A program made the position numbers and the translations under genes. A stretch of DNA of 64,000 bases, from contig NZ_AP021884.1 of assembly GCF_009938015.1 (NCBI RefSeq), positions 3,164,585 to 3,228,584 of the forward strand. Reading direction: 5' to 3'. This DNA is from Sulfuriferula plumbiphila. GTDB taxonomy: Bacteria; Pseudomonadota; Gammaproteobacteria; Burkholderiales; Sulfuriferulaceae. This document shows, piece by piece, positions 1-10,930 of this stretch. A model generated the notes under the pieces. It ran no database searches, had not been told where the DNA came from, and saw nothing but the letters and a program-made list of their open reading frames with translations. Position 1 is the stretch's first letter. Each line of letters starts with the position of its first letter.

Positions 1-2853
1 ATCACCCTGACCTTCGCTCCGGACACCGATATCTACCGGGACAGGCAGGTCGTGGCAGAGCAAATGGGCGGCACTGCCGGCACGCTTCCCCGGGGCGTGA
101 AGGCACCGGCTTTGCTGCCGCTGGCTTCCTCCACCAGCGTGGTGCTGAGCCTCGGTCTGACCTCGAAGTCGCGCTCCCTGATGGAACTGCGCACCCTCGC
201 CGACTGGAGCGTCAAACCACAGCTGCTTGCGGTGGGCGGGGTGGCAGGCATCTCCGTGTTCGGCGGCGAGGTGAAGCAGTTGCAGATCCAGATCGCTCCC
301 GCCAGACTGGTGCGTTACGGCCTGGCTATCCAGGACGTGGTCAACGCAGCAAAGCGGGCAACGGCAGTGCGCGGCGCCGGCCTTATCGAAAACAACAACC
401 AGCGCATCACGCTGGAAACCACCGGGCAGCCCCTCTCCGCCGCGGCGCTGGGTGCGGTGGTACTGCGCAATCAGGGCGGCGCCACGCTGCGCCTGGCGGA
501 CGTGGCGAATGTCACGGTGGCACCCGCCCCCGCAGTGGGCGCGGCCTCGATCGAGGGACAGCCGGGGGTGATGCTGGTGGTCGAGGAACAGTACGGCGCG
601 AATACCCTGGCCGTGACCCGGGCGCTGGAACAGCGCCTCGCGCAGCTTAAACCGGCCCTTGCTGCCGAAGGCGTGACCCTGCATCCCGACCTGTTCCGCC
701 CGGCCAACTTCATCGAAACCGCGATCAGCCACCTGCGCACGGCGCTGCTGATCGGCGCCGCGCTGGTGCTGGTCGTGCTGTTCCTGTTCCTGTTCAACGT
801 GCGCGCCGCGGTCATTTCGGCCAGCGCGATCCCGCTTTCGCTGCTGACTGCGGTGATCGTGCTCAATCACTTCGGCATCGGCCTCAATACCATGACGCTG
901 GGCGGACTCGCCATCGCCATCGGCGAGGTGGTGGACGACGCCATTGTCGATGTGGAGAACATTTTCCGGCGCCTGCGCGAAAACCGGCTGCTGGCCGCTC
1001 CGCTGGGTGCAGCGCAGGTGGTGTTGAATGCCTCGCTCGAGGTGCGCGGCGCGGTGATCTACGCCACCTTCATCGTGGCGCTGGTGTTCGTGCCGGTATT
1101 GACGCTGTCCGGCGTCGCCGGCAGCTTGTTCGGCCCGCTGGCGCTCGCCTATATCGCGGCCATCATGGCCTCGCTGGTGGTGGCGCTGACGCTTACCCCG
1201 GCGCTTGCCTGCGCGTTGCTGGCGCGGCGTGCAGCCGAGGCAGATGAACCGCCCCTGGGTAAATGGCTCAAGGCGCGCTACACCCGTCTGCTTGCCGATA
1301 TCGATCGGCGCGCGGGCGCAGCAATTCTGGTCGTGGTGTTGCTGTGCGGTACGGCATTGGCCGTGCTGCCATTCATGCAAGGCAGCTTTCTGCCGACGCT
1401 GCGCGAGGGGCATTTCATCGTCCACATGAAAATGGCGCCCGGCACTTCGCTGCCCCAGTCACTCGCGCTGGGGCAGCGCGTTAGCGGGGCGCTCAGCCGA
1501 ATTCCGGGGATACGTTCGGTGGCCCAGCGCGCGGGGCGGGCAACCCAGGTGTCGGATCCGGCGGGGGCATTTTCGAGCGAGTTCGAGGTGGACCTGGCCC
1601 CGCTCTCGGGCGCCGGACAACAGCGCGTGTTGAACGCTATCCGCAGCGCCGTTGTGCACTTCGTGGGAGCGAGCTTCTCGGTCAATACCTTCCTCACCGA
1701 GCGCATCCATGAAACAATTTCGGGTTATACCGCACCGCTGGTGGTGAATGTCTATGGCAACGACCTCGACGTCCTTGACCGCAAGGCCGAGGAAATCGCC
1801 GCTGCGATACGTGGCGTTGCAGGCGCCGGCGCAGTGCAGGTGCAGGCACCGACAGGCAGCCCGCAACTGGTCATCCACCTGCACGATGGTGCCCTGTCGC
1901 GGCTCGGCATCGCCCCGGTAGACGCCCTGAGCACGGTCGAAACTGCCTACGCCGGCAGGCTGGTAGGCGAGGTGTACGAGGGTAACCGCGTATTCGATGT
2001 GGCGGTGGTGCTGGCGCCACGCCTGCGGCAAAGCCCGGCACAGGTGGGAGAGCTGCCCTTGAAAACGCCGGACGGTCGCATGGTGCAACTCCGCGACGTG
2101 GCGGACATCACCCAGACCGACGGGCGCTATCTGATCCTGCACGACGACGCGCAACGCCTGCAGGTAGTGACTGCGGAGGTCAAGGGGCGCGCGCTGTCGA
2201 GTTTCGTCAACGCGGTGAAAAAACGCATCGCTGCCCAGGTCACCCTGCCGCGCGGCACTTACCTGGTGTTTGCCGGCGATGCGCCTGAGCAGGCCCGCGC
2301 GCAACAGGATCTGCTGCTGCATTCGGCACTGGCCGCGGCGGGCGTGGCACTGCTGTTGTACATGGCGCTGGGCGGGGTGCGCTCGGCCATCCTGGTGTTT
2401 GCCAACCTGCCCTTCGCGCTGGCCGGCGGTGTGGCGATGGTACTCGTCACCGGCGGGGTGCTGTCCATCGGCTCGCTGGTGGGCTTCGTCACGCTGTTCG
2501 GCATTACCCTGCGCAATGCCATCATGCTGATCTCCCACTACCGCCATCTGGTCGAGGTGGAAGGCGTGCCATGGGACAAGGCAGCGGCGATCCGCGGCGC
2601 TGCGGAGCGTCTGTCGCCGATCCTGATGACAGCGCTGGTCACCGCCCTGGGACTGCTGCCGCTGGCGCTGACCAGCGGCGCGCCCGGCAACGAGATCGAA
2701 GGCCCGATGGCCGCCGTCATCCTGGGCGGGCTGATCACCTCCACGCTGCTCAACCTGCTTGTCCTGCCGACCCTCGCGCTGCGCTATGGGCGCTTCGGGC
2801 GTCCCGCTCAGCGGGATGCGCCGGAAGCCGCTTCGGCCTCATCGTCGCCGTAA
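1..2853 (+). CDS. RND-family efflux permease, 5'-truncated by window edge
   Basis: The reading frame is open from base 1, so the start lies upstream; about 950 residues are visible of the roughly 1030-1050 usual for inner-membrane RND pumps. Visible parts are a porter region, a central membrane block, a second porter region and a C-terminal membrane block. The fourth-helix segment contains GEVVDDAIVDVENIFRRL, where acidic residues of the proton relay are expected, and the overall pattern is closest to the CusA/CzcA (heavy-metal) branch. It should export a substrate across both membranes with a periplasmic adaptor and an outer-membrane channel, presumably encoded upstream. Substrate cannot be told from sequence. 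Its last 46 bases overlap the convergent cydB gene. Family is sure; metal specificity is not. Confidence 0.9.
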   Translation: MTLTFAPDTDIYRDRQVVAEQMGGTAGTLPRGVKAPALLPLASSTSVVLSLGLTSKSRSLMELRTLADWSVKPQLLAVGGVAGISVFGGEVKQLQIQIAPARLVRYGLAIQDVVNAAKRATAVRGAGLIENNNQRITLETTGQPLSAAALGAVVLRNQGGATLRLADVANVTVAPAPAVGAASIEGQPGVMLVVEEQYGANTLAVTRALEQRLAQLKPALAAEGVTLHPDLFRPANFIETAISHLRTALLIGAALVLVVLFLFLFNVRAAVISASAIPLSLLTAVIVLNHFGIGLNTMTLGGLAIAIGEVVDDAIVDVENIFRRLRENRLLAAPLGAAQVVLNASLEVRGAVIYATFIVALVFVPVLTLSGVAGSLFGPLALAYIAAIMASLVVALTLTPALACALLARRAAEADEPPLGKWLKARYTRLLADIDRRAGAAILVVVLLCGTALAVLPFMQGSFLPTLREGHFIVHMKMAPGTSLPQSLALGQRVSGALSRIPGIRSVAQRAGRATQVSDPAGAFSSEFEVDLAPLSGAGQQRVLNAIRSAVVHFVGASFSVNTFLTERIHETISGYTAPLVVNVYGNDLDVLDRKAEEIAAAIRGVAGAGAVQVQAPTGSPQLVIHLHDGALSRLGIAPVDALSTVETAYAGRLVGEVYEGNRVFDVAVVLAPRLRQSPAQVGELPLKTPDGRMVQLRDVADITQTDGRYLILHDDAQRLQVVTAEVKGRALSSFVNAVKKRIAAQVTLPRGTYLVFAGDAPEQARAQQDLLLHSALAAAGVALLLYMALGGVRSAILVFANLPFALAGGVAMVLVTGGVLSIGSLVGFVTLFGITLRNAIMLISHYRHLVEVEGVPWDKAAAIRGAAERLSPILMTALVTALGLLPLALTSGAPGNEIEGPMAAVILGGLITSTLLNLLVLPTLALRYGRFGRPAQRDAPEAASASSSP

Positions 2854-3845
2854 GCCGCCCCATCCACCTTGCCGCTGAACACCAGATACTGATAGCCGTT
2901 GTAGAACAGCATGATCGGTATCAGCGGCAGGATGCCGACCAGCATGAACAGCTGCGTACCGGAGGAAGCGGCGCCGGCGCTCCAGGTCAATGCGGGGATG
3001 ATGGCGTAGGGATACAGGCTCGCGACCAGGCCGATGAACGACGCCACAAACAGCAGCAGCGTGCCAAAAAACGGCCAGTATTCATACCGCTTGAGATAGG
3101 CCCACATGGTCAGCAGCGCTGCGAAAATGGCTACCCCTCCTGCCAGCGCATAAGGCAGCGCCGCGCTTCCGGTCCAGCGGCTGGCAATATGGGCGTTGTG
3201 CAACGGCGTCAACGCCAGCACCAGCACACCCGTCGCCAGCGTTCCCAGCAACAGCAAAAAACCGCGCCGGTAGGCGCGATCCTGCATCTCGCCGGTGGAT
3301 TTGAGAATCAGCCAGCCGGTCCCCATCAGCGCATAACCCAGCACCACGCCCAACGCGGTCAGCAGACTGAATGGGGTAAACCAGTGCCAGCCGCTGCCCA
3401 CATAGTTACCCGCCAACGTCGGCCAGCCCTGAATCAGCGCTCCCAGTATCATCCCCTGGCTGCTTGCCGCACCCAGGCTGCCCAGGCCAAAGGTCAGGTT
3501 CCACAGCCACTTGCGCCCGCTGGCATGGCTAAATTCGAACGCCACGCCGCGCATGATCAGCGCAAACAGCATCACCGTGACCGGGATATACAGGCCCTGC
3601 ATCAATGCTGCGTATACCGGCGGAAACGCCCCGAACAGCACCCCGCCCAACAGCACCAGCCAGGTTTCATTGGCATCCCACACGCTGGAGAGACTCGCCA
3701 TCATCAGGCCGCGGCGGTCTTCATCGCATGCCACCAGCGACAGGATGCCCACCCCCAGATCAAATCCGTCCAGAACCACATACAGCAACAGCGACAGCCC
3801 GGCTACGCCAATCCAGAATGCCACCAGGAAACTTTGCACGTCCAT
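2808..3845 (-). CDS. cydB: Cytochrome bd-type quinol oxidase subunit II
   Basis: 345 residues with many hydrophobic helices and the family N-terminus (FWIGVAGLSLLLYVVLDGFD). CydB/CioB is the structural subunit of the bd quinol oxidase, which reduces O2 to water in the inner membrane without pumping protons. It lies 45 bases downstream of cydA on the same strand, in the usual A-then-B order. Its 3' end overlaps the 3' end of the RND gene by 46 bases. No CydX-type small subunit gene is evident between or after the two subunits, as is common in the cyanide-insensitive (Cio) branch. Confidence 0.93.
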   Translation of the reverse strand: MDVQSFLVAFWIGVAGLSLLLYVVLDGFDLGVGILSLVACDEDRRGLMMASLSSVWDANETWLVLLGGVLFGAFPPVYAALMQGLYIPVTVMLFALIMRGVAFEFSHASGRKWLWNLTFGLGSLGAASSQGMILGALIQGWPTLAGNYVGSGWHWFTPFSLLTALGVVLGYALMGTGWLILKSTGEMQDRAYRRGFLLLLGTLATGVLVLALTPLHNAHIASRWTGSAALPYALAGGVAIFAALLTMWAYLKRYEYWPFFGTLLLFVASFIGLVASLYPYAIIPALTWSAGAASSGTQLFMLVGILPLIPIMLFYNGYQYLVFSGKVDGAAYGDDEAEAASGASR

Positions 3846-9590: not shown

Positions 9591-9591
<1 letters not shown>

Positions 9592-10160
9592 TGCGCACCA
9601 TATTGACTGTCGCCGCACTGGGTTTGGCACTATTGCAATTGCAGGGTTGCGTACCGCTGGTCGCAACCGGTATCGGCGCAGGCGCACTGATGGCGGCGGA
9701 CCGCCGCAGCTCGGGCACCTACATCGAAGATCAGGAAATCGAACTGCGCGCCGGCAGCCGCATCGGTGAAGCCTATCCGAAAGATACGCATGTCAATGTC
9801 ACCAGCTTTAATCGCGACGTGCTGCTCACCGGCGAAGTGCCGACGCCGGAAGCCAGACAAAAAATCGCCGACATCGCCCAGGGCGTGGGCAATGTGCGCA
9901 AGGTATACAATGAAACCGTGGTGGGGCCGGTGTCCCTGCTCTCCTCGCGCAGCAACGACGCTTACATCACCACCAAGGTCAAAGCGCGCTTTCTCGACGC
10001 CAAGCGCTTCCAGGTCAACTACGTCAAAGTGGTCACTGAAAACGGCGTGGTCTATCTGATGGGCCTGGTCACCTCACAAGAGGCTGAGGACGCCGCGCAG
10101 CTCGCCAGCACCACCAGCGGCGTGCGCAAAGTGGTCAAGATTTTCCAGATTGTTCAGTAA
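9591..10160 (+). CDS. dolP: BON-domain outer-membrane lipoprotein (DolP/YraP)
   Basis: 189 residues starting at the ATG in TAATG, with AGGAG seven bases upstream. A lipoprotein signal ends in a lipobox, LLQLQGC, with Cys19 or so as the lipidation site. Two BON domains follow (about residues 50-115 and 125-189), each with the glycine/valine pattern GVVYLMGLV. DolP sits in the inner leaflet of the outer membrane at division sites and supports envelope integrity. Translationally coupled to the SIS isomerase gene. A large palindromic element begins directly after its stop codon. Confidence 0.92.
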
Positions 10161-10426
10161 GGACTCGTTCATGAATAACCTGGACTTACGTTGCCGTGTA
10201 TTCGGGATGGATGCAAGGCGCGAAGCGCGGCGAATGGTTATTCCATTCGCAAGCTTTGCAACGCCGCAGACGCCCGAATACACGGCAACCCTTCAGGCTG
10301 GGGTCGCTTTGGGCGCATCCCGGCGTTGCGAGCCGCTTGTTGTGAATGACACAACCGCGCGTCTCGCGCCTTGGGCTGCGCCCAAAGCGACCCCAGCGTA
10401 AGTCCAGGTTATTCATGAACGAGCCC
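10161..10426. repeat. 266-bp nested inverted-repeat (cloverleaf-like) element
   Basis: The outer arms are 30 bp (10161-10190 and 10397-10426, one mismatch). Inside are two further long stems: 17 bp perfect (10190-10206 with 10273-10289) and 19 bp perfect (10299-10317 with 10377-10395). Each carries a small inner hairpin: 8 bp at 10230-10237/10243-10250 and 6 bp at 10339-10344/10350-10355. Together they would fold as a cloverleaf in RNA or a cruciform in DNA. Short open frames on both strands begin with the same ATGAATAACCTGGACTTACG, because the arms are mirror copies; these are not called as genes. TAA flanks both ends, a possible 3-bp target duplication that could be coincidence. Confidence 0.85.
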
Positions 10427-10432
10427 TAACCG

Positions 10433-10930
10433 TTGAAATCCGTTTACCCGCTGCCTGATTTCGAGGCCAGGATTGCCACACCGCAAACGCTGCCCGCCCT
10501 GCTCGCGCGTCTGCCGCGCCCGCTGGTGTTCACCAACGGCTGCTTCGATATCCTGCACCGCGGACATGTCACCTACCTGGCGCAAGCCCGCGCGCTCGGC
10601 GCGGCGCTGATCGTCGGGGTCAATTCGGATGATTCGGTGCGGCGCCAGAACAAGGGCGCGGATCGTCCCATCAATCCCCTTGCCGACCGCATGGCCGTGC
10701 TCGCCGCGCTGGCCAGCGTGAACGCCGTGGCAAGCTTTGACACCGACACGCCGCTCGACCTCATCCTCGCGATTCGCCCCGATGTGCTGGTCAAAGGCGG
10801 CGACTGGCCGGTGCAGGCCATCGTTGGCGGCCGCGCAGTGCTGGGCTGGGGCGGACAGGTGCATTCCATTCCGTTTTTGCATTCCACCTCGACCACGGCG
10901 ACACTCAGCCGCATCCGGGAGACCTCTTGA
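10433..10930 (+). CDS. rfaE2: D-glycero-beta-D-manno-heptose 1-phosphate adenylyltransferase
   Basis: 165 residues matching the C-terminal nucleotidyltransferase half of HldE. It joins heptose-1-phosphate to ATP to give ADP-heptose for the LPS inner core. The nucleotide-binding HxGH motif appears in [15 protein letters not shown], and a later conserved segment is DVLVKGGDW. The kinase half is absent, so a separate kinase (rfaE1/hldA) is needed elsewhere. Start is TTG at 10433, only seven bases after the palindromic element, with a weak ribosome site. Its stop overlaps the ubiD start (TTGA). Confidence 0.93.

Follow-up and report, generated by a model that had tools for sequence, protein, structure and literature searches.

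Prokaryotic MITEs are typically shorter than 500 bp, carry terminal inverted repeats (TIRs) and direct repeats and depend on related insertion sequences (ISs) for their movement in trans, according to PMC10969869. MITEs are usually seen as shrunken IS copies, and those treated there are mainly IS-derived and share their ends, or more, with one IS, whereas the superfamily described here combines one core with several kinds of ends. The same text names the Correia elements as the first prokaryotic MITE to be found. Correia elements (CREE or NEMIS), which PMC5039591 describes as unique to Neisseria, resemble the element reported here in being small, TIR-bounded, gene-free, of several sizes and hairpin-forming, but differ from it in their ends (TATAGTGG...), in having one hairpin instead of two and in their length of 69–157 bp. 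MITEPsy1 of Pseudomonas syringae, which was trapped while transposing, is likewise small and has a CTAG or YTAA target; it is 100 bp long with other ends (PMC3189936, compared by size, ends and target). The stem-loop repeat families of 40 bacterial genomes are intergenic, share a common fold and include double hairpins such as Pae-1 (PMC2267715; PMC1590033, both in extract); our superfamily was compared with those of PMC2267715 by description. Finally, ISs of the IS1182 family have ends like GAGCCTGTCGGACTT with CTAG outside them, as does one class of the superfamily, but the element studied here differs from them in its ends and in its TAA target.

The element lies in a 64,000-nucleotide stretch of Sulfuriferula plumbiphila DNA (the window), between a dolP-type gene and rfaE2. 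In our view it is very probably, taken as a whole, a MITE of a large superfamily in which a double-hairpin core stands behind differing transposon ends and is moved in trans. Literature searches by word and by sequence brought up no account of this family.

Architecture and insertion site

The features of the locus, in window coordinates, are as follows.

9591–10160, plus strand: upstream dolP-type lipoprotein gene (NF008247, E = 1.5e-45; BON domain PF04972, E = 2.9e-32)
10158–10160, unstranded: left TAA of the 3-bp target-site duplication (sequence; TWA flanks elsewhere; empty site L131)
10161–10426, unstranded: whole non-autonomous element, 266 bp (copies in its own genome and in relatives)
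10161–10189, plus strand: left TIR (28/29 paired with 10398–10426; pattern searches)
10190–10289, plus strand: hairpin A (alignment A1 and pair counts; model R2, 108.4 bits, E = 1.2e-23, this hairpin having belonged to the training set of R2)
10290–10296, unstranded: 7-nt joint between A and B, CCTTCAG (base-by-base check of the arms)
10297–10397, minus strand: hairpin B, inverted relative of A (model R1, 57.3 bits, E = 2e-12; alignment A2)
10398–10426, minus strand: right TIR (base-by-base check of the arms)
10427–10429, unstranded: right TAA of the target-site duplication (sequence)
10433–10930, plus strand: rfaE2 with a TTG start (TIGR02199, E = 1.4e-55, above cut-off)

The TIRs are 29 nt long and pair at all positions except 10163. 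The ends begin GGACTCGTTCATG...; the left repeat begins GGACTCGTTCATGAATAA..., and the common form of this end class is GGGCTCGTTAATGAATAA. Inside them, the outer stem of hairpin A (10190–10206 with 10273–10289) is fully paired over 17 positions here and variable between copies, while its apex (10207–10272) is conserved. Stem B (10297–10321 with 10373–10397) pairs at 24 of 25 positions, and both A and B contain an inner hairpin. The element is thus an inverted pair of related hairpins, since R1, a covariance model trained only on A hairpins, recognises B on the other strand (the minus-strand match being in the window's own copy, L353). Joints resembling CCCGAAGGG were seen by eye between A and B in distant members of the superfamily.

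Because only 7 nt separate A from B, the strand is predicted to form a three-way junction bearing two leaves, and so not a true cloverleaf. The predicted RNA fold of 10150–10440 has an energy of -195, compared with -100.6 ± 4.5 for dinucleotide shuffles (z = -21.0), and the DNA fold of 10161–10426 an energy of -114.5 compared with -49.4 ± 3.4 (z = -19.3); in neither case was any of 200 shuffles as stable. A consensus scan of 10100–10500 found no terminator-like or sigma-70-like site, and Rfam gave nothing at its gathering score across 10000–10600, the five weaker matches being to four microRNAs and one VA family. Stop-free frames cross the element on both strands, the longest listed frame lying mostly inside it reaching 83 aa.

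These results largely agree with the first-pass annotation, which had described symmetry far beyond chance, an inner hairpin in each stem, no resemblance to a terminator and no protein of its own; on the last point, the set of open frames varies between copies. Some of its measurements needed adjustment. The long outer stem is real, but is 29 nt with one mismatch instead of 30 bp; the perfect 17-bp stem stands as hairpin A, whereas the perfect 19-bp stem becomes the slightly imperfect 25-bp stem of B; and the 'cloverleaf-like' shape holds for the nested stem-loops but not for the number of leaves.

The upstream product is a BON-domain lipoprotein of the DolP type, its match to NF008247 falling below the curated cut-off of that model. 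The left TAA is the dolP stop codon, and the element had been correctly placed between this stop and the rfaE2 start, with TAA on both flanks; profile matches support both neighbours. Sixteen other members of the genus provide junctions without the element: in a search with R2 over 17 RfaE2 loci, only the window's own locus carried it, and the sole other match (L132; partial, 13.4 bits, E = 0.87) lay off the junction. The empty site L131 reads GTTCAG-TAA-TCGCGTTGAAATCC, compared with GTTCAG-TAA-[element]-TAA-CCGTTGAAATCC in the window. In the congener with the most similar RfaE2 (G007, 86% identical) the empty junction reads ...GTTCAG TAA TCGCG TTG.... The dolP stop and the rfaE2 start are 272 nt apart in the window and 5 nt apart in the nearest relative with an empty junction. 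With the starts in relatives placed by alignment to the window's protein, the upstream frame ends at most 9 nt before rfaE2, or overlaps it, in 11 of the 16 (the start in L144 being uncertain) and 53–61 nt before it in two; in the remaining three no long upstream frame was called.

The insertion would have struck the dolP stop codon itself, the duplication restoring the stop and the element parting dolP from rfaE2; the upstream gene is left whole because the TAA was duplicated. RfaE2 has a single match in the window's genome, so that expression of rfaE2, if the gene is used, would be expected to survive the insertion. Copies elsewhere had no apparent tie to lipopolysaccharide genes in an unsystematic look.

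Copies, targets and the driving transposase

The element is mobile and non-autonomous, as had been suggested. The two other early suggestions, a target for replication forks or cruciform extrusion and a structured RNA affecting rfaE2, were covered by fold prediction, which yielded nothing that contradicts them. A second full copy, 90% identical, lies at G000:C1:250836–251100 of the same genome, and a truncated copy of 65 bp at G000:C1:546089–546153 (L015:2590–2654). By eye, the genes on either side of the latter look like thiS and thiG. At an E-value of 0.001 the element is matched in 29 of 100 genomes, its own included. Identical TAA/TAA or TTA/TTA flanks bound 22 of 29 full-length copies, a set obtained from 31 rows by removing two reverse self-matches and in which two or more pairs of rows seem to show a single site shared by two species. 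A larger collection of 70 elements has identical 3-bp flanks in 39 cases (TAA or TTA in 37); the flanks of the other 31 differ, a point against our preferred account. The window element is thus shorter than 500 bp, has TIRs and a target-site duplication, is multicopy with empty sites and lacks a transposase of its own, all features of a MITE.

We collected 75 distinct elements with the window's end class from the loci examined. Their lengths are 260–269 bp in 51, 150–169 bp in eight, 40–59 bp in seven and other values in nine, and the seven shortest contain little beyond the ends. Tiny palindromes of about 43–50 bp, again little more than two ends, were noted at L184, L185, L186, L162, L153, L154 and G587:C1:3617006–3617054, with or without a duplication. 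The 18-base end motif (one mismatch allowed) was present, among the matches listed, in 23 of 399 genomes and eight of 158 genera of the order. At an E-value of 1e-5 there was no match in phages and one in plasmids (Azotobacter chroococcum pAcX50f), where the copy has CTAG on both sides.

The target coincides with the stop codon of a frame of at least 60 codons in 26 of the 70 elements, compared with a background of 17–18% among the TWA sites of these loci; not all such frames are genes, and the elements themselves were kept in the background. This is suggestive of a preference for insertion at stop codons. A script flagged nine of the 70 as interrupting a long frame.

In the explanation that we prefer, a DDE transposase would recognise the ends in trans and would cut and paste the element into TWA, or into CTAG for other end classes. 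Our search for an element of 0.7–2.5 kb with the window's end class, which might encode such an enzyme, found none around PF01609 (12 genomes, 30 loci scanned), PF13340 (21 genomes, 12 loci) or PF13751 (33 genomes, 29 loci scanned). Nor was there an autonomous partner among the matches listed when the end-motif pattern was run over 21 and 399 genomes and paired by eye, beside the 11 unpaired ends that were read, or in viral contigs, which gave two matches to the window's ends. For other end classes, GGGCCTGTTGACGTTT and GAGCCTATTTCAGTAG in nine and 20 genomes showed spacings by eye of about 260–320, 200, 100 and 50 bp and none near 1 kb; the ends GAGCCTATTTCAGTAG and GGGCGTGTTAACACTA matched viral contigs 13 and 26 times, always singly and unpaired, and these matches were taken as chance. 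Members of the IS5 family (IS1031-like) generate a TNA duplication. An origin from this family would agree with the TWA duplication seen; no matching ends were present in the 30 PF01609 and 12 PF13340 loci. Derivation of the window element from IS1182 was rejected on its ends and its TAA target, and only another end class fits that family. The missing driver would fit either a passenger that has outlived it or a search that missed it.

Resident ISs were seen close to two elements: the second full copy (L014, near 2830–3100) abuts the end of an IS with a DDE_Tnp_1 transposase (G000:C1:250118–250636), and a copy in G007 (L052:420–685) neighbours a PF13340 match. The element's edge seems to be a place where insertion sequences land.

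A hairpin core behind several kinds of ends

When the core was searched for without its ends, it matched elements bearing other ends, among them CTAG|GAGCCTGTCGGACTT, TNA|GAGCCTATTTCAGTAG and GGGCGTGTTAACACTAATTT. At E-values up to 1e-4 per genome, R1 matched 94 of the 398 genomes sampled from the phylum, the window's own among them, and 53 of 213 genera, so that this intergenic repeat class is matched in about one quarter of these genomes. An inverted second hairpin stood beside the first in 18 of the 30 loci by which the R1 matches were sampled, L364 and L381 being out of register at contig ends. Scanning named genomes with a motif gave at least 120 stretches. Among the 80 listed are many Proteobacteria bins, Gallionellaceae, Sulfuricellaceae, Thiobacillus, Hydrogenophilaceae and Rhodocyclales, two Pseudomonas, two contigs of one Mariprofundaceae bin, and single Granulosicoccaceae, Rhizobium and Desulfobulbus bins, for which mis-binning is possible.

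Compensatory changes, the absence of which would argue against a selected fold, are abundant in both hairpins. In the alignment of hairpin A (38 sequences) 92.3% of cells are paired and 29 of 33 pairs show two-sided changes; the corresponding values for hairpin B (30 sequences) are 89.0% and 25 of 30, the structures having been predicted from the same alignments, which favours the pairing figures. Two-sided cells number 248 in A and 168 in B, compared with 80 and 48 after shuffling (none of 500 shuffles as high), and sliding the partner out of register lowers pairing to 34–44% and 35–49%, respectively. Fitting 106 hairpins to the model gave pairing in 93.1% of cells, with two-sided changes in 33 of 33 pairs (29.3 shuffled). 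The apices keep their letters, whereas the outer stems are rewritten yet remain paired: the share of the majority letter in A is 0.85 for paired and 0.83 for unpaired apex positions and 0.57 in the outer stem, and in B it is 0.81, 0.81 and 0.66.

Across 53 full elements with the window's end class, pairing holds in 95.0% of 5,825 cells. Where two copies are less than 3% apart, they differ by 4.14 one-sided and 0.29 two-sided changes per comparison (seven comparisons), whereas those more than 15% apart have about as many two-sided (13.53) as one-sided (13.75) changes, with 3.8 two-sided changes expected if the sides were independent; these pairwise comparisons are not independent of one another. 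Single changes in the stems come first and the partner follows, through selection or correction of one arm by the other.

The core would be a conserved module standing behind the ends of two or more types of transposon, one of them IS1182-like. Ends and cores were compared in 54 complete elements that show a duplication. A strict rule, under which 13 of 18 letters must agree in register with the first member, divides them into 13 end classes, although L057 plainly belongs to the window's class; shift-tolerant single linkage gives eight classes at 70%, seven at 65% and three at 60%. Between representatives of the eight classes (28 pairs) the ends are 40% alike in register and 48% at the best shift, whereas the core apices are 81% alike (lowest 71%; shuffled cores average 46%), an identity inflated by the gathering of these elements through a core motif. 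One class has a CTAG|CTAG duplication in all eight members (L069–L072, L075, L076, L299 and L311). Its ends (GAGCCTGTCGGACTT) agree in 13 and 14 of 15 letters with the two ends of L202, which also has CTAG outside both; the 320-aa product of L202 matches the IS1182 model NF033551 (E = 5.8e-73), as does the 339-aa product of L204 (E = 2e-66), which adjoins one exact end of this class, both below the curated cut-off. Since this CTAG class with IS1182-like ends stands against a TWA class, the core appears to be served by at least two target habits and probably by two kinds of transposase.

Whether ends were ever exchanged is evenly balanced against descent in one lineage, in which the ends only diverged along with their transposases. 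The likeness between end classes at the best shift lies somewhat above the mean of 38% for random 18-mers (99th centile 56%), and with their merger into three at 60% this makes divergence instead of exchange possible. Many ends also start G-R-G-C and have TA-containing targets, and the end of L039, 13/18 like the window's class, is an intermediate. The opposing evidence is the gap between ends and motif-chosen cores, the unequal duplications (4 bp for CTAG, 3 bp for TWA) and the IS1182-family-like ends of one class. An insert shared by L058 and L039 was for a time considered as proof of exchanged ends and was dropped in view of the same L039 end. If the core is conserved behind differing ends, it is the inside that persists and not the ends, which raises the question of what the core does.

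Correia elements and the role of the core

Seven TIR-bounded CREE-like elements were taken from IMG/VR contigs, their ends agreeing with those given in PMC5039591. R1 matched three of the seven (25.3–25.9 bits, E = 2–3e-4) and nothing else in 72,760 bases. R2 matched four (33.0, 33.0, 32.3 and 18.3 bits; E = 2e-5, 2e-5, 3e-5 and 0.072), missed the other three and found nothing further in the same bases; its two best matches are one and the same 107-bp sequence. As controls, 313,626 bases of other viral contigs gave R2 no score above 12.6 bits (E = 7.3), and four ERIC-bearing stretches and four other loci gave it no match. A relation to ERIC was rejected on this result, in the R2-to-ERIC direction. 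By letters alone the Correia match is weak (nhmmer E = 0.59), and one of 150 letter shuffles scored as high for the 107-bp form and 24 of 150 for the 157-bp form. The model thus appears to pick out some Correia elements mainly through structure; in its alignment they also share the letters CAAGGCG, CGCAG, CAAG and CAACGCCG with the superfamily. Kinship between the two is likely, and Correia elements may gain relatives outside Neisseria. The window element itself is not a Correia element as defined by the 26-bp repeat TATAGTGGATTAAA..., which its ends rule out.

In the preferred explanation the core would be kept for its own sake. The conserved apices probably function in single-stranded DNA or RNA, as a site that folds or is bound, and would help transposition or spare the host.

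There is a lesser chance that the core is primarily a selected RNA structure, an mRNA stabiliser or RNase III substrate comparable to Neisseria NEMIS, with mobility secondary. The strong covariation in both stems and the stability of the predicted RNA fold would suit such a role, and a paper title among the references cited in PMC5039591 describes NEMIS RNA as a substrate of ribonuclease III. A DNA hairpin would, however, show the same covariation, and correction of one arm by template switching would also yield two-sided changes.

More speculatively, and rather against the odds, the core may be a selfish, independent hyperparasite cassette that captures new transposon ends again and again (IS1182-like, IS5-like, Correia) and rides as a passenger of many transposases across Proteobacteria, a reading made less likely by end classes that resemble one another slightly beyond random expectation. 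The Correia elements would then be its Neisseria branch, and the apex its working part, recognised by something common to the hosts.

That strand-switch repair alone maintains the palindrome, with no selection on the fold, seems to us improbable. It would account for outer stems that are freely rewritten and still paired and for the excess of two-sided changes between copies more than 15% apart, but not for apices that hold specific letters at unpaired and paired positions alike. A protein-coding mini-element is most improbable and a coding role was set aside. Of 50 long elements, 96% do contain a stop-free frame of at least 75 codons, and often several, compared with 52% of shuffles (single-letter ones, which ignore dinucleotides); copies differ, however, as to the frames that are open, and the copies' own length shifts by single bases (263–268).

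Three further observations concern individual copies. In L163 (2040 onward) and on the reverse strand of L155, a long open reading frame has ATGAAT or ATGAATAAC supplied in frame by a solitary end; the frame in L163 looks glycosyltransferase-like by eye. An element end may here have been turned into the start of a gene. In L065 (2138–2237) hairpin A is flipped relative to the rest of the element, with 97% identity in the flipped sense, as if the stem had recombined. Lastly, a structured insert of about 103 bp (GAGGCCTGCGAC...) occupies the same point inside hairpin B in L058 (3309–3411) and L039 (1387–1489), the two inserts being 90% identical and the ends of these two elements related (13 of 18 letters), and part of it recurs at a contig end in L319 (1–49); it may have been inherited, or may be a mobile element of second order with this hairpin as its target.
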